DNA of 37,189 nucleotides, from NCBI GenBank assembly GCA_017654125.1, contig JAFNYX010000086.1, positions 1-37,189 on the forward strand, written 5' to 3'. The stretch comes from Alistipes sp. (GTDB taxonomy: Bacteria > Bacteroidota > Bacteroidia > Bacteroidales > Rikenellaceae). Positions 21,877-28,102 of the stretch are shown here, piece by piece. A program made the translations under genes and the position numbers. Positions within the stretch are counted from its first letter, which is position 1, and each line of letters starts with the position of its first letter. The notes below the pieces were generated by a model. It did not search any database. It saw only the letters and a program-made list of their open reading frames with translations, and was not told where the DNA came from.

Positions 21877-22938
21877 CTACTCCTCGCGCATGACACGATT
21901 TTGATGATTGATACTCTCGATATGGATGGCTTCGAGCACAGTTGCAACAAACTCCGCACTCAAACCATGTTTGGTGGCTGTGGCCTGTACACGCGCGACA
22001 ACCTCATTCCAACGGTTCGATTGGAGAATCATCACATTATTCTCGCGTTTGATACGACCGATATTATCAGCCGCTAACATACGACGCGCAAGCAGGTCAA
22101 AAACCTCATTATCCAAACGATCAATCATACCTCGCAATTCGTCAATCGAATTTTGGTAAGCTACCGATTGTGACTCAGTGGCACGCCACTGAATACGGTC
22201 GAGCATTGCCGAGAGGGCATCGGGTGTAATCTGTTGCGAAGCATCGCTCCACGCCGTATCAGGCGAGCAGTGACTCTCCATCATCACACCATTAAAGTCC
22301 AAATCGGCGGCTTGTTGCGCGACATCAAACAGACGCACGCGATTACCGCAAATGTGCGACGGGTCACAGAACATCGGCAACTCCGGCATACGACGTTTGG
22401 CTTCGAGCGGAATGTGCCACATCGGCGAATTGCGATACTCTTTGACTCCGTAACCAGAAAAACCACGATGAATCAGACCGATATTCTTAATATCACACTT
22501 TTGCAGACGCTCGACAGCACCAATCCACAATTCGAGGTCAGCGCTCATCGGATTCTTCACCAACACCGGTTTTTCCGTACCGCGCAACGCCTCGGCAACC
22601 TCCTGCGTACTGAACGGATTGGAAGTCGTACGTGCGCCCAGCCACAATATATCAATATCGAACTTCAATGCGCTCTCGACGTGGCGTGCATTTGCCACTT
22701 CGACCGCTATCGGCAACCCGGTCTGCTCTCTTGCCTCAACCAACCAAGGCAACGCCTCGACTCCCATGCCCTCGAACATTCCCGGTTTGGTACGTGGTTT
22801 CCAAACGCCAGCACGTAGCACATCAACCTTTCCCGTTGCAGCCAAGGCGCACATCGTAGAGAGTGTCTGCTCGCGAGTCTCCGCACTACACGGGCCCGCA
22901 ATGATGAGCGGTTTACGCGATTTTATATCCAATGCCAT
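21877..22938 (-). CDS. aroF: Bifunctional DAHP synthase / chorismate mutase
   Basis: The 353-residue cytosolic protein joins the first step of the shikimate pathway (phosphoenolpyruvate plus erythrose 4-phosphate to DAHP) to the chorismate-to-prephenate step. Residues about 1-250 are a type I-beta DAHP synthase: IAGPCSAE (Cys17), LWLGARTTSNPF, CDPSHICGNR (His195), MMESHCSPDTAWSD (Glu221). These supply the metal ligands. Residues about 262-345 form an AroQ-type mutase helix bundle (SIDELRGMIDRLDNEVFDLL). It is the last gene of the pheA operon, 6 nt after tyrA. The symbol is used loosely; such fusions carry several names. The mutase domain may also confer prephenate inhibition, as in related fusions. 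Confidence 0.95.
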   Translation of the reverse strand: MALDIKSRKPLIIAGPCSAETREQTLSTMCALAATGKVDVLRAGVWKPRTKPGMFEGMGVEALPWLVEAREQTGLPIAVEVANARHVESALKFDIDILWLGARTTSNPFSTQEVAEALRGTEKPVLVKNPMSADLELWIGAVERLQKCDIKNIGLIHRGFSGYGVKEYRNSPMWHIPLEAKRRMPELPMFCDPSHICGNRVRLFDVAQQAADLDFNGVMMESHCSPDTAWSDASQQITPDALSAMLDRIQWRATESQSVAYQNSIDELRGMIDRLDNEVFDLLARRMLAADNIGRIKRENNVMILQSNRWNEVVARVQATATKHGLSAEFVATVLEAIHIESINHQNRVMREE

Positions 22939-22944
22939 AATCTT

Positions 22945-23799
22945 CTAATGTTTATTACCCTGTAAAACCTTTCTGATATCGTTTGCACGCGTAATGATGC
23001 GGCGCAATTCATCGCGATCGTCCCTCTCCAACGCTTTGCGGAAGAGTTGCAACTGATGGATATATTCGCGCAACACATCAAGCACGTTATACTTATTCTG
23101 CATAAAAATCGGAATCCACGTATCGGCCGCACTCTTCGCCAAACGCACCGTACTATCAAAACCGCCACCCGCAAGATTGAAGATTGTATCCACCTCGCGC
23201 TCCTTCTCCAACACGGTGGTCGAAAGCACAAACGACGTGATGTGCGAAATGTGGCTGACGTATGCCGCATGGGTATCATGCTCCTCTGCGGACATCTCCA
23301 TCACAAACATTCCGAGACGTTGATATATTTCCGTTACGCTCTGCACAACCTCCCTATCGGTACGCTCCGTTTCACACAGCACAACATTACGCCCTGCAAA
23401 CGAATCGGCCGTCGCCGCCTCCGGGCCGCTATACTCCGTACCCCACATAGGGTGCGTGGCAATAAAACGACCACGAGCCGGATGCTGGCTGATCACCTCG
23501 CACAACTCCTCTTTCGTCGAACCAACGTCCATCACCCACTGCGTAGGCGAGATGCGGTTGAGCAACTTTATAGCCATCTGAGGAACAGCATCGACCGGAA
23601 TGGCAAGCACAACACAATCGCTATCGATGGTCGCCTCCGAAAAGGGTACAATCTCGTCCACAATACCGAGCGCAATAGCCGTTTCGGCATGTTTCGGATT
23701 ACTATCCACACCGCGCACATACTCAACCATACCGCAACGACGCATAGCAAGCGCCATCGAACCGCCAATCAAGCCCAAACCTATAATCGTAACCTTCAT
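22945..23799 (-). CDS. tyrA: Prephenate dehydrogenase
   Basis: The frame is open upstream to 23868, but the start chosen is the ATG at 23799-23797, which begins the conserved MKVTIIGLGLIGGS. This gives 284 residues. The N-terminal Rossmann fold has GLGLIGGS (residues 7-14) for the dinucleotide; HPMWGTEYSG resembles the HPMAGTE substrate loop of the family, and HDTHAAYVSHISH holds the catalytic histidine region. It oxidatively decarboxylates prephenate to 4-hydroxyphenylpyruvate on the tyrosine branch. It lies 14 nt after the aminotransferase and 6 nt before the DAHP synthase fusion. No ACT domain is present. Confidence 0.95.
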   Translation of the reverse strand: MKVTIIGLGLIGGSMALAMRRCGMVEYVRGVDSNPKHAETAIALGIVDEIVPFSEATIDSDCVVLAIPVDAVPQMAIKLLNRISPTQWVMDVGSTKEELCEVISQHPARGRFIATHPMWGTEYSGPEAATADSFAGRNVVLCETERTDREVVQSVTEIYQRLGMFVMEMSAEEHDTHAAYVSHISHITSFVLSTTVLEKEREVDTIFNLAGGGFDSTVRLAKSAADTWIPIFMQNKYNVLDVLREYIHQLQLFRKALERDDRDELRRIITRANDIRKVLQGNKH

Positions 23800-23813: not shown

Positions 23814-24977
23814 TTATTGCTGTTTTACTATTTCGAGAACCTCCAAAAGCGTCTGCTGTGAGGCACACAGACTCAATCGCATATATCGCTCGCCGGCACT
23901 GCCAAAGATACCGCCCGGCGTAAGGAAGATGCCCTTCTCATAGAGCAAGCGGTCGCAACACTCGTAACAAGTCTCACCTTGTGGCAATTCGCCCCACAGG
24001 AACAAACCCGCCTGATGCGGCGCATAGCGAAGACCTAACGCATCGAAAATCGCCTCACCGATACGTTCACGAGCGCGATACTCGGCATTCTGCGCCTCGT
24101 ACCACTCGTCGCCCAACGATAGAGCCGTCGCTGCGGCAAGTTGCAACGGAAGGAACATTCCCGAATCCATATTGCTTTTGAATCGCATAATTTCGGCAAT
24201 GCGTTCTGCATCAGCTGCGAGCATACCAACACGCCAACCAGCCATATTATGGCTCTTACTGAGCGAATTGAGTTCCATTGCAACCTCACTAGCACCTTCG
24301 ACCTGCAACACACTAACCGGACAAGCGTTACGAATAAAGCCATACGGATTGTCGTTGAGCAGCAGGATGCGGTGCGTACGACAAAAATCGACCACGTGGC
24401 GCAAATCGTCGAGCGAAGCAACTGCTCCGGTCGGCATGTGCGGATAGTTGATAATCATCATCTTTACCCCTTCGATCGGAAGCATATCCAACTGTGGCAA
24501 CCATCCCCCATCGGCACTCAACTCATAGGCAACCGGCTCACCACCAGATAGGCGTACAGCCGAGGTATAGGTCGGATACCCCGGATTGGGAATCAGCACC
24601 TTATCTCCTGCTCGCAAATAGGTCATACATACGTGCATAATACCCTCTTTCGAGCCGATAAGCGGCAGCACCTCACGATTGGCATCCAGCTTAACACCAA
24701 AACGCTCGCCATACCAACGAACAAATGCCTCTCGCAGCGCAGGTGCACCCTTATAGGATTGGTAGCCGTGCGTAGTTGTACGTGCCGACTCCTCGGCAAG
24801 TCGCTGCACAACACTCGGATGCGGCGGCATATCCGGGCTACCGATACCAAGCGAGATGATGCGTCGGCCTTGCGCACGCAACTCGTCTATCTCGCGCAAC
24901 TTACGCGAAAAATAGTACTCACCCACCCCCTCCAAACGCTCCGAAAGCGAGGGCTGAAATTTATGCGGTTCGTTCAT
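23814..24977 (-). CDS. PLP-dependent class I/II aminotransferase, probably aromatic amino acid
   Basis: The 387-residue enzyme has the fold-type I features: IGSKEGIMH, NPGYPTY, NDNPYGFIR (PLP-binding Asp/Tyr region), and the Schiff-base Lys241 in SLSKSHNMAGWRVG. Arg near the C-terminus (RYMRLSL) should bind the substrate carboxylate. In this operon the natural role is the final transamination to phenylalanine and tyrosine (or of prephenate to arogenate); this is inferred from position between pheA (12 nt) and tyrA (14 nt). Sequence alone would also fit an aspartate, alanine or diaminopimelate aminotransferase of the same subfamily. Confidence 0.88.
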   Translation of the reverse strand: MNEPHKFQPSLSERLEGVGEYYFSRKLREIDELRAQGRRIISLGIGSPDMPPHPSVVQRLAEESARTTTHGYQSYKGAPALREAFVRWYGERFGVKLDANREVLPLIGSKEGIMHVCMTYLRAGDKVLIPNPGYPTYTSAVRLSGGEPVAYELSADGGWLPQLDMLPIEGVKMMIINYPHMPTGAVASLDDLRHVVDFCRTHRILLLNDNPYGFIRNACPVSVLQVEGASEVAMELNSLSKSHNMAGWRVGMLAADAERIAEIMRFKSNMDSGMFLPLQLAAATALSLGDEWYEAQNAEYRARERIGEAIFDALGLRYAPHQAGLFLWGELPQGETCYECCDRLLYEKGIFLTPGGIFGSAGERYMRLSLCASQQTLLEVLEIVKQQ

Positions 24978-24989
24978 CGTTCTTTTGCC

Positions 24990-25835
24990 TTAAAAAATGT
25001 TATCCATCGCATCATTATAGATACCGTAAACGTGTACCTCAACACCATTTGCACGCATCTGTTCGACCGCTAATCGAAACTGCTCGACACATTCGAAGCG
25101 CATATCAACGTGGAACATATAGTGCCACGGCTCGGTCGGAATCGGATACGACTGCAATTTTGTCATATTGATACCACACCCCTCAATTGCGCCCAACGTA
25201 CGATATAAAGAGCCACTGCGGTGGTGAATGTTAAAATAGAGCGACGCCTTATTTCCGGTCGTCACCGACATCTCCGGCACATAACTACTGCGGTCGCACG
25301 CCTCCAACACGAGGAAACGAGTATAGTTATTGCGTATGGTATGAATGTCGTGAGCGACGATATCCAAATCGAATAGTTCCGCGGCGAGCGAACTTGCAAT
25401 GGCGGCCGTATGGCGCGAGCCACTCTTTTGCAACTGCGCTGCACTGAGAGCCGTATCGGCACTCTCAACCAAACGCCAACTATGAGTATCCAAAAACTCG
25501 GCACACTGCAACAGAGCCATTTGGTGCGACTCAACCTCACGAATATCCTCCAACGTCACACCGCGATTGACCATCAGATTTTGGCGGATTTGCAAGCATA
25601 TTTCGCCAGAAACGCAGACGTTACCACTTTGCAAAATATTATAATTGGGCAGAATCGAGCCGGCTATCGAATTTTCGATTGCCATCACACCGTAATCCAC
25701 CTCTCCGCACTCGACTACGCGTGCTACGTCACGAAACGTATCACAAGCCCTAACCTCGACATCGGCACCCTCGTATCGACGTGCGGCAATATGGTGAAAA
25801 CTACCCTCGTAACCCTGTATTGCTACTCTCTTCAT
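24990..25835 (-). CDS. pheA: Prephenate dehydratase
   Basis: The 281-residue protein converts prephenate to phenylpyruvate. The periplasmic-binding-like catalytic domain (residues 1-180) has the TRF motif at 172-174 (NNYTRFLVLE) and AIENSIAGSI. An ACT domain follows (about 197-275, LYFNIHHRSGSLYRTLGAIEG). The usual Phe-binding motifs GALV and ESRP appear here as GSLY and QSYP, so feedback control may differ from E. coli PheA. No chorismate mutase is fused to it; that activity sits on the DAHP synthase three genes down. It is the first structural gene after the leader peptide and hairpin at 25878-26010. Confidence 0.96.
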   Translation of the reverse strand: MKRVAIQGYEGSFHHIAARRYEGADVEVRACDTFRDVARVVECGEVDYGVMAIENSIAGSILPNYNILQSGNVCVSGEICLQIRQNLMVNRGVTLEDIREVESHQMALLQCAEFLDTHSWRLVESADTALSAAQLQKSGSRHTAAIASSLAAELFDLDIVAHDIHTIRNNYTRFLVLEACDRSSYVPEMSVTTGNKASLYFNIHHRSGSLYRTLGAIEGCGINMTKLQSYPIPTEPWHYMFHVDMRFECVEQFRLAVEQMRANGVEVHVYGIYNDAMDNIF

Positions 25836-25877
25836 TATTACTACCTCACTATGCGATCTCCCAAGTCATTAAATACA

Positions 25878-25909
25878 GACAGCCGCCTCCAAAAATTGAA
25901 GCGGCTGCC
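25878..25909 (-). terminator. Attenuator hairpin of the pheA operon
   Basis: On the minus strand GGCAGCCGCTTC (25909-25898) pairs with GAGGCGGCTGTC (25889-25878), 12 bp including two G-U pairs, across an 8-nt loop. The bases after the stem are TGTATTTAAT, a weak U-tract, so termination efficiency is uncertain. The CCGCTTC part of the first arm is complementary to GAAGCGG at the end of the leader ORF (25951-25945), giving a competing structure. Confidence 0.65.
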
Positions 25910-25941
25910 GAAAACTCGATTTTTTGATTACTGCAAACGTA

Positions 25942-26010
25942 TTACCGCTTCTCTAAATTTTCGTTAAAGAAGTAAAAATAATAGCAACCAAAAAATCGTC
26001 TCTTGTTCAT
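25942..26010 (-). CDS. Aromatic leader peptide of the pheA operon (putative pheL-like)
   Basis: The ORF has 22 codons and a TAA stop, and is too short for ordinary gene calling. Its product starts MNKRR, then FFGCYYFYFF at residues 6-15, then NENLEKR. Eight of those ten residues are Phe or Tyr, five Phe and three Tyr, which is the expected sign of a ribosome-stalling leader for an operon that makes Phe and Tyr. Its last three sense codons (GAG AAG CGG) contain the antiterminator sequence GAAGCGG. The start ATG lies 32 nt after a TATATTTG promoter element. It is unlike E. coli PheL in sequence but equivalent in layout. Not confirmed by conservation. Confidence 0.8.
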   Translation of the reverse strand: MNKRRFFGCYYFYFFNENLEKR

Positions 26011-26041
26011 CGCTGAATCAATAAAATGGTATATCTGACTA

Positions 26042-26049
26042 CAAATATA
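26042..26049 (-). promoter_or_regulatory. Predicted -7 element of the pheA leader promoter
   Basis: TATATTTG matches TAnnTTTG on the minus strand and would start transcription about 25 nt before the leader ATG. No TTTG is found at the expected -33 distance, so the promoter is weaker than others in this window or needs an activator. Confidence 0.6.
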
Positions 26050-26128: not shown

Positions 26129-28102
26129 TTATCGCAGAAAATCCTCGAAATAATCGGTCACCTTATGCATAAGATGCACGCGATGCTTGCCTCGCACGTT
26201 ATGTTGCGCGCGCGGATAAGGGAAGTAGTCCACTGGCACGTTTGCCTTGATGCACTCCTGCACAAAATTGAGCGAGTGTTGCCACAACACTACATCATCT
26301 ACCGCGCCCTGACAAATCAGCAATCGACCACGCAAGTCCTTCGCTCGTGGCAACAATGAAGTTGCTGCAAAGCCATTGGCGTTAGTCGCCTCGGTTTCCA
26401 TATATCGTTCGCCATACATCACCTCGTACCACTTCCAATCAATCACCGGACCACCGGCAACACCAACCTTAAAGACATCGGGATAGTTCACCATAAGCGA
26501 GATAGTCATAAAACCACCATACGACCAACCGTGTACGCCGATACGCTCCGTATCGACCCACTCGTGCGACATCAGCCAGCGCATACCCGCCATCTGATCC
26601 TCCATCTCACACACTCCGCATCGACCGTGAATTGCACGCTCGAACTCCGCGCCACGATTCTGCGTTCCTCGGTTATCCATCACAAAAACAACCCAACCAC
26701 GCTGCGCCATATACATCTCCCAACGACGCAGTTGCGCCTGGAACGAATTGCGCACCATTTGCGAATGAGGGCCACCATAGACGTACAGAATTACGGGATA
26801 CTTCTTCGCCGGATCGAAATCGAGCGGTTTGATAAGGCGGTAGTAGTTATCGTATTTACCGTCGGCACTACGCACCGTACCCAACTCAATAGGCGCAAAG
26901 TTGAACTCCGCAGCCGGATTTTCGGCACGAAACACCTCGCGATACACCTTTCCGTCGGTCGTGCCGACAGCCACAACTCGTGGTACATCAAGCGACGAGT
27001 AGTTATCCGAGAACAAACGAGCATCGGTAGAAAGCGAACAGGTGTGCCAACCCTCATCACGCGTGAGTTGCTGTACGCGGCCCGTACGCAAATCCTTACG
27101 CATCAGATGGCGCTCGACGGGTGACTGCTCGGCCGAATAGTAATATACGGCGCGCTCGCACTGACCCACATACTCCACATCGGCATCAACCTTCGTAAGG
27201 CGAGTCAGCGTATCATCCGCAAGCGAATAGAGATATAGGTTGCGATAACCATCGCGGTTGTTGGTCGTATAGATAAACTTCGACGCATCACCACGCAGAA
27301 AGTAGAGCGGATATTGTGGTTCAACAAAGCGATCGTCGTGCTCGGTTAGCAACGTCTTAATAAACGCTCCGCTCGTCGCATCATATAGATTCAGATGCAT
27401 ATTCTTCTGCGCGCGATCGAGCACCTGTGCATAGATACGCTCCGAGTCGGGCGACCAAGTGAGATTGGTAATGTATCGTTCCTCGTCGAAATCCGTAACA
27501 TTCAGATATACACTCTCGCCCGTCTCGACATTATATACACCCACCTCAATACGCTCCGAAGGCATACCGTTCATCGGGTACTTTATTTCGAAAAGTGAAC
27601 CCGTTCGTGTGGTGATATCGAGCAGCGGGAAGGTCGTAACACGCGACTCGTCTTTCTTATAAAACGCCAAACGACGGCCATCGGGCGAAGGGAAAAGACC
27701 GCCCGAAATACCAAACTCGTTACGCGAAACAGTTGCTCCGCAGACAATGTTTTTATCCTCAAAGTCTGTCACACGACGCTCCGAGCCATCCGCCTCAACC
27801 CAAACGATATTGTTCTCTCGCAGTTCGGCATGTGCCACTTTCGATACTGGTTGCGGTGGCTCCACTTTGCGCACTTTACCCGTTCGCACATCAATGGCCT
27901 GCCACTCGCCCTCCGGCGTGCAATGCAGATATTCGCCCTTTGCACATGCGTCGTTCCATTCGATATGATAGTTCTTAGGTACGAGATCGTGGTTAAGAAT
28001 CGCATCCTCCATCGTAAGCAGACGCCTACCCTCTGCCGCATCTACGCCAAACGCCGTCGCGAAGCACAACAACGTAGCAAACACCATTCGCAAGAAATTC
28101 AT
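26129..28102 (-). CDS. Secreted dipeptidyl-peptidase IV-like serine peptidase (S9 family)
   Basis: The 657-residue protein has a Sec signal peptide (MNFLRMVFATLLCFATAFGV), an N-terminal beta-propeller of the DPP-IV type (from about residue 80), and a C-terminal alpha/beta hydrolase. The nucleophile is Ser527 in GWSYGGF; the Asp is probably in GAVDDVV and the His in GKHRVHLMH. It should cleave N-terminal dipeptides, often Xaa-Pro, in the periplasm or outside. At 657 residues it is shorter than classical bacterial DPP-IV of about 720-740. Its start codon lies directly next to the stop of the PfkB kinase gene, so the two are translationally coupled, although their roles look unrelated. Confidence 0.92.
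   Translation of the reverse strand: MNFLRMVFATLLCFATAFGVDAAEGRRLLTMEDAILNHDLVPKNYHIEWNDACAKGEYLHCTPEGEWQAIDVRTGKVRKVEPPQPVSKVAHAELRENNIVWVEADGSERRVTDFEDKNIVCGATVSRNEFGISGGLFPSPDGRRLAFYKKDESRVTTFPLLDITTRTGSLFEIKYPMNGMPSERIEVGVYNVETGESVYLNVTDFDEERYITNLTWSPDSERIYAQVLDRAQKNMHLNLYDATSGAFIKTLLTEHDDRFVEPQYPLYFLRGDASKFIYTTNNRDGYRNLYLYSLADDTLTRLTKVDADVEYVGQCERAVYYYSAEQSPVERHLMRKDLRTGRVQQLTRDEGWHTCSLSTDARLFSDNYSSLDVPRVVAVGTTDGKVYREVFRAENPAAEFNFAPIELGTVRSADGKYDNYYRLIKPLDFDPAKKYPVILYVYGGPHSQMVRNSFQAQLRRWEMYMAQRGWVVFVMDNRGTQNRGAEFERAIHGRCGVCEMEDQMAGMRWLMSHEWVDTERIGVHGWSYGGFMTISLMVNYPDVFKVGVAGGPVIDWKWYEVMYGERYMETEATNANGFAATSLLPRAKDLRGRLLICQGAVDDVVLWQHSLNFVQECIKANVPVDYFPYPRAQHNVRGKHRVHLMHKVTDYFEDFLR

Follow-up and report, generated by a model that had tools for sequence, protein, structure and literature searches.

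The aromatic amino acid operon of an Alistipes sp. genome is very probably controlled by a pheL-type, ribosome-mediated transcription attenuator, in which a short Phe- and Tyr-rich leader ORF would govern the transcription of pheA, an aminotransferase gene, tyrA, and a gene for DAHP synthase fused to chorismate mutase. Comparison of related loci and RNA folding revealed the leader ORF, its conservation, competing predicted pairings, and the placement of these pairings relative to the regulatory codons. The window (the whole stretch of DNA analysed, 37,189 nucleotides) belongs to a genome of 1.7 Mb with an estimated completeness of 82%, and the closest relatives of its PheA are found in Alistipes and Rikenellaceae MAGs, chiefly from the ruminant gut. 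The leader and the operon comprise the following features:

25942..26010, minus strand: leader peptide ORF of 22 codons, MNKRRFFGCYYFYFFNENLEKR (sequence, conservation, and shuffles)
25966..25995, minus strand: regulatory codons 6-15, FFGCYYFYFF (sequence; codons conserved across the window plus ten near loci)
24990..25835, minus strand: pheA, prephenate dehydratase (Pfam PF00800)
23814..24977, minus strand: class I/II aminotransferase (Pfam)
22945..23799, minus strand: tyrA, prephenate dehydrogenase (Pfam; scanned from 23808, start at 23799 set by eye)
21877..22938, minus strand: DAHP synthase fused to chorismate mutase (Pfam)

The leader ORF starts with the ATG at 26010-26008 and ends with the TAA at 25944-25942, and 106 nt separate this stop codon from the pheA start codon at 25835. 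Residues 6-15 are aromatic at eight of the ten positions. Upstream of the leader, a DPP IV/S9 peptidase gene ends at 26129 according to Pfam. The 22-codon ORF, its FFGCYYFYFF stretch, and its distance to pheA had already been described in an initial sequence-only reading of this DNA and proved exact upon re-reading, and the operon content named there was recovered by Pfam in the order pheA, aminotransferase, tyrA, and DAHP synthase/chorismate mutase.

As the DNA at this locus is T-rich, it was in principle possible that the ORF had arisen by chance, all the more as a run of six TWY codons occurs six times in the genome and equally often with a reversed-pattern control, so that the bare run is not rare. 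However, when the 293-nt intergenic stretch or the 450 nt upstream were shuffled with preservation of dinucleotides, eight Phe/Tyr codons in ten were reached in only 1 of 5000 shuffles in either case, and T-richness therefore does not explain the leader ORF. To call leaders in other loci, we accepted ATG ORFs of 8-50 codons upstream of pheA with at least 6 Phe/Tyr in 10 codons, a cut-off chosen after initial inspection of the loci. Of the 214 pheA loci with 450 nt of upstream sequence, which comprise the window and also 11 loci from outside the class, 181 contained such an ORF. The antisense strand yielded one in 4 of 214 cases and shuffling in 27 of 2140, and the stricter requirement of at least 8 in 10 was satisfied by 117 of the 214 loci but by no antisense stretch and no shuffle. 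Chance origin is thus refuted by conservation, in line with the sequence-only reading, which had regarded a chance ORF as unlikely despite the T-rich DNA, and we assign it a negligible probability. The rare features are the short ORF, its location, and its conservation, rather than the TWY run.

Around the five other TWY runs of the genome (L261-L265, about 3 kb each, one strand), a single short ORF starting with ATG had 6 or more Phe/Tyr in 10 codons. This ORF, MPHHRQVFNIFYYFFEKIK (L264:2501-2560), lies away from the TWY run and overlaps the end of a long ORF, and the gene after it resembles a repressor by eye. It was rejected as a second Phe/Tyr leader and is probably a product of chance. 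Runs of four His codons were found 18 times in the genome and 3 times in the reversed control.

The leader is widespread in the class Bacteroidia. It was present in 62 of 76 named loci, in 65 of 74 unnamed same-order loci, and in 49 of 52 loci from other orders of the class, which together with the window amounts to 177 of 203 within-class loci, and in only 4 of the 51 loci examined from outside the class. The alignment of related upstream regions that the sequence-only reading had proposed as a check thus found the ORF and its Phe/Tyr run kept in most loci. Alistipes sp. dk3624 (L059), a relative that is in culture, is among the carriers of the leader. These loci were not randomly drawn but are in part best matches and in part hand-picked. 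The named loci are the best 80 of 101 found, minus four (L025, L063, L064, and L075) with less than 150 nt upstream, and their class was taken from the record labels (L034 is labelled Verrucomicrobiota). PheA matches were obtained in 258 of the 296 genomes of the phylum set and in 81 of the 197 genomes of the order set. The same-order sample consists of 74 loci, with L167 dropped at a contig end and five more matching genomes left out, the other-order sample covers 52 of 66 matching same-class genomes, and the outside-class sample comprises 51 loci, which were taken from 50 of the 189 genomes with a match and chosen to span several families.

An ATG leader at the threshold was absent in 26 of the 203 within-class loci (window included in the total). 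A wider scan of these 26, which covered the whole upstream locus for 15 of them and 600 nt for 11, detected leaders that start with GTG or TTG in L091, L141, and L168, as well as a distant upstream ATG ORF in L151, and the remaining 22 had no ORF reaching 6 Phe/Tyr in 10 within the scanned range. Sub-threshold leader-like ORFs with 5 in 10 were seen in L003, L046, and L065. In the near relative L003 (L003:2364-2441), the leader frame is broken by a one-base difference with the hairpin and segment A (see below) kept, which is due to either natural decay or a MAG error. Five loci labelled Tidjanibacter (L019, L021, L022, L029, and L031) have operon genes after pheA and no Phe/Tyr leader in the available upstream DNA, and two others (L027 and L028) have the Phe/Tyr ORF and no hairpin within our cut-offs.

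The four outside-class leaders belong to L086, L102, L103, and L199, whose PheA proteins score 186-283 bits against the PheA of the window; the other outside-class PheA matches listed score below 165 bits, except four. This unusual closeness suggests that operon and leader may have been transferred together into these genomes, although L186, L206, and L238, three of these four exceptions, have no leader, which counts against a transfer. On balance, we favor the view that an attenuator with a Phe and Tyr leader is the standard means by which Bacteroidia control the synthesis of aromatic amino acids, and probably an ancestral one, with its sequence kept only for stalling and pairing, and that it moved with the operon to a few other classes of the phylum.

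Codon drift within the leader points to the same function. Codons 5, 6, 8, 13, 14, and 15 are identical across the window and ten near loci, codons 2-4 are variable, and codons 7 and 9-12 are exclusively TTT, TTC, TAT, or TAC, with the exception of a Met in L032, a Cys in the window, and a Ser each in L004 and L062. This comparison used 11 of the 17 rows of our alignment and omitted L003 as well as L009 and L011-L014, which are more distant. Over all 181 leaders, Phe (22%) and Tyr (15%) are the commonest residues, and 176 leaders contain at least two Phe plus at least two Tyr. A conserved short leader ORF would also be expected if the peptide itself acted, either by nascent-chain arrest or as a small protein, rather than by stalling at limiting tRNA. 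However, an arrest peptide or a small protein should keep specific residues, whereas Phe and Tyr interchange here, and outside the Phe/Tyr codons both sequence and length of the peptide vary widely among loci, which makes an action of the peptide itself quite improbable.

A candidate -7 box of a promoter is present ahead of the ORF:

26042..26049, minus strand: -7 box candidate TATATTTG, which fits TAnnTTTG (sequence; consensus from PMC9723704)

TAnnTTTG is the -7 consensus reported for Flavobacterium in the parts of PMC9723704 considered here. In the window, TATATTTG (26049-26042) sits 31 nt ahead of the leader ATG, and inspection by eye found no clear -33 box near it. Within 90 nt upstream, TANNTTTG occurs in 125 of the 181 leaders as compared to a shuffle mean of 16.4.

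Between the leader stop codon and pheA, the RNA is predicted to form a terminator-like hairpin from two segments that we term B and C:

25898..25909, minus strand: segment B, 5' hairpin arm and also the 3' half of the putative antiterminator (folding and A:B tests)
25878..25889, minus strand: segment C, 3' arm of the hairpin (folding)
25871..25877, minus strand: weak U-tract TGTATTT (sequence)

The stem GGCAGCCGCTTC / GAGGCGGCTGTC (25909-25898 / 25889-25878) lies in a scored segment of -23.1 kcal/mol. With cut-offs of at most -9 kcal/mol, at least 5 T in 8, and a distance of at most 70 nt from the stop codon, such a hairpin was found in 163 of the 181 leaders but in only 7 of 905 shuffles of the stretch from the stop codon to pheA.

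The 5' arm of this hairpin can alternatively pair with a segment at the end of the leader ORF, and part of the ORF can pair with the spacer:

25944..25951, minus strand: segment A, GAAGCGGT, 5' half of the putative antiterminator, reaching into the first base of the leader stop codon (A:B test and alignment)
25983..25998, minus strand: segment 1, spanning leader codons 5-10 (partner at 25932-25917)
25917..25932, minus strand: partner of segment 1, between leader stop codon and hairpin (duplex test and fold)

The A:B pairing in the window was better than expected from 200 shuffles of the sequence preceding B (z -3.18, p 0.005). Among the 163 loci with leader and hairpin, it beat the shuffles at p<=0.05 in 138 (about 8 expected) and at p<=0.01 in 107 (about 1.6 expected), and segment A was close to the leader stop codon in 160 of the 163, which is a bare count with no shuffle control. 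In the 17-sequence alignment, 98.5% of the cells of the eight A:B pairs are paired, and a pair that is G-C in 15 loci is A-U in the other two, namely the window and L012. Covariation in this near clade is thin, as the count of double-change pairs was matched by 113 of 500 shuffles, whereas paired cells and covariation score were reached by only 3 of 500.

Segment 1, CGATTTTTTGGTTGCT (25998-25983), can form 16 bp with AGTAATCAAAAAATCG (25932-25917), two of them G-U (p 0.015), and this stem occurs in the minimum-energy fold of the leader RNA. The best leader:spacer duplex reached p<=0.05 in 75 of the 163 loci, a weaker signal than that of A:B. Directly after segment A, GTAACCCGTGTGC is well conserved in L002, L005, L007, L008, L010, L015, L032, and L062, and pairing with leader codons accounts for this conservation only in part.

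The strong minimum-energy fold of the window leader RNA (z -6.25, equaled by 0 of 200 shuffles), together with this partly accounted-for conservation of GTAACCCGTGTGC, would also suit a structured RNA that senses directly, like a riboswitch or T-box, with the ORF being incidental. However, no Rfam family, riboswitches and T-boxes included, matched the window at gathering score, and helix sequences differ widely across loci while the Phe/Tyr run persists, so that we consider direct sensing even less probable than an action of the peptide. The NCBIfam models of four leader peptides also gave no match.

A more serious alternative to a working attenuator in the window, albeit clearly the less likely one, is that the system has decayed in this Alistipes sp. 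genome or uses another end step, such as Rho or pausing, and that the relatives keep the working form. The U-tract TGTATTT is degenerate in comparison to the longer T runs of near relatives, and the stop codon is displaced relative to theirs by a length change, as expected from a decay. On the other hand, the leader frame, the A:B and B:C pairings, and the 16-bp pairing of segment 1 have all been retained in the window.

For a functional attenuator, we infer the following course of promoter use, translation, stalling, and termination. RNA polymerase would start near 26035 and transcribe the leader ORF, with the ribosome trailing behind. A shortage of charged tRNA-Phe or tRNA-Tyr would make the ribosome stall on codons 6-15 and cover segment 1, A would stay free, and A:B could form, which would block the B:C hairpin and let transcription enter the operon. 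When both tRNAs are plentiful, the ribosome at the stop codon would cover A, and the resulting B:C hairpin would end transcription. If no ribosome is present, segment 1 and the spacer downstream of A would enclose A, and B:C would again be favored. A pheL-like leader that senses Phe and Tyr had been proposed in the sequence-only reading, and conservation, codon drift, the hairpin, and the A:B and leader:spacer pairings all speak for it.

We modeled the influence of the ribosome position by regarding the RNA as free from 13 nt beyond the first base of the codon in the A site, a distance known from toeprints. At full equilibrium, there was almost no switch in the window (terminator 0.78 with the ribosome mid-run and 0.81 at the stop codon), nor in eight near relatives (L002, L004-L008, L010, and L015). 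Over 161 loci, equilibrium folding gave a full flip in 55, a shift in the right direction by more than 0.1 in 77, and a shift in the wrong direction by more than 0.1 in none. Before C is made, B was held by upstream RNA by more than 0.2 more mid-run than at the stop codon in 156 of the 161 loci. In the window, pairing of B at this stage was 0.76 mid-run, 0.45 at the last Phe codon, and 0.34 at the stop codon, and the difference of 0.41 between mid-run and stop codon was reached by 0 of 20 shuffles (mean 0.02). This measure is partly built in, as a ribosome further back frees more RNA, and shuffles of the exposed segment also exceeded 0.2 in 2153 of 3220 trials, with a median of 0.29 in comparison to 0.48 observed, a control that slightly lowers our confidence in the attenuator. 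Nevertheless, the observed difference was reached by at most 1 of 20 shuffles in 79 of the 161 loci, where about 15 were expected. As the difference appears in the window before C is made and hardly at equilibrium, the proposed mechanism would rest on co-transcriptional timing. Classical attenuation likewise rests on such timing. If our model is true, transcription and translation in Bacteroidia would be coupled tightly enough for the ribosome to time the polymerase.

The Bacteroid-trp RNA motif is a Trp-codon leader attenuator of the trp operon, and a comparative attenuation study published in 2004 by Vitreschak and colleagues is said to include perhaps some Bacteroidetes. Like Bacteroid-trp, which is listed as a candidate cis-regulatory RNA of Bacteroidetes in the parts of the source considered here (RF01692; PMC2864571, Weinberg 2010), the element described here is a candidate cis-regulatory RNA of this phylum, but it precedes pheA, and the RF01692 covariance model had no match in the window or in the 82% complete genome. 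In the parts considered here, long 5' UTRs of Bacteroides are described as containing short ORFs reminiscent of attenuation leaders (PMC7366714), and leader genes near structural genes, those of Bacteroidetes included, are seen as reinitiation aids (PMC4833913). According to the portion considered of a survey from 2010, leader-peptide systems had, to its authors' knowledge, until then been demonstrated in Proteobacteria and Actinobacteria alone, to which it added Firmicutes (PMC2965389).

The sequence-only reading had called attenuation little described in Bacteroidetes, which is only partly right. The parts of PMC9723704 considered here report strong clues for attenuation by leader peptides before amino-acid operons of F. 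psychrophilum, as well as a structured 5' element before pheA that was found in other Flavobacteriaceae genera, and they describe translation starts and promoters of Bacteroidia as unlike those of most bacteria. This element resembles ours in that it belongs to the same phylum and the same gene, with leader-peptide attenuation inferred before amino-acid operons, but those parts of PMC9723704 give no peptide, pairing scheme, or wider spread for it. In our analysis, the pheA loci of F. davisii and F. columnare (L078 and L080) carry a Phe/Tyr leader. A literature search at the level of titles and abstract openings yielded no Phe/Tyr leader in Bacteroidia, and the parts of papers considered here likewise describe none before pheA in this class. 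As far as this literature goes, the class-wide spread, the anatomy, and the combination of two amino acids in one leader are new; the novelty lies in reach and detail, since the mechanism, at which the 2021 Flavobacterium paper had hinted in the parts considered (PMC9723704), is of an already known kind.

A close comparison is provided by the pheL-pheA system of E. coli K-12, in which a short ORF with aromatic codons and alternative hairpins likewise precede pheA. E. coli pheL passes the ORF, terminator, and A:B tests used here, with 7 Phe/Tyr in 10 codons, 7 T in 8 at the terminator, and an A:B pairing with a z of -6.1 that none of 200 shuffles equaled. In contrast to pheL, which has Phe codons and no Tyr codons, the leader described here has both, and whereas tyrA-aroF lies on the opposite strand in E. 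coli, one leader here precedes an operon that contains pheA together with tyrA.
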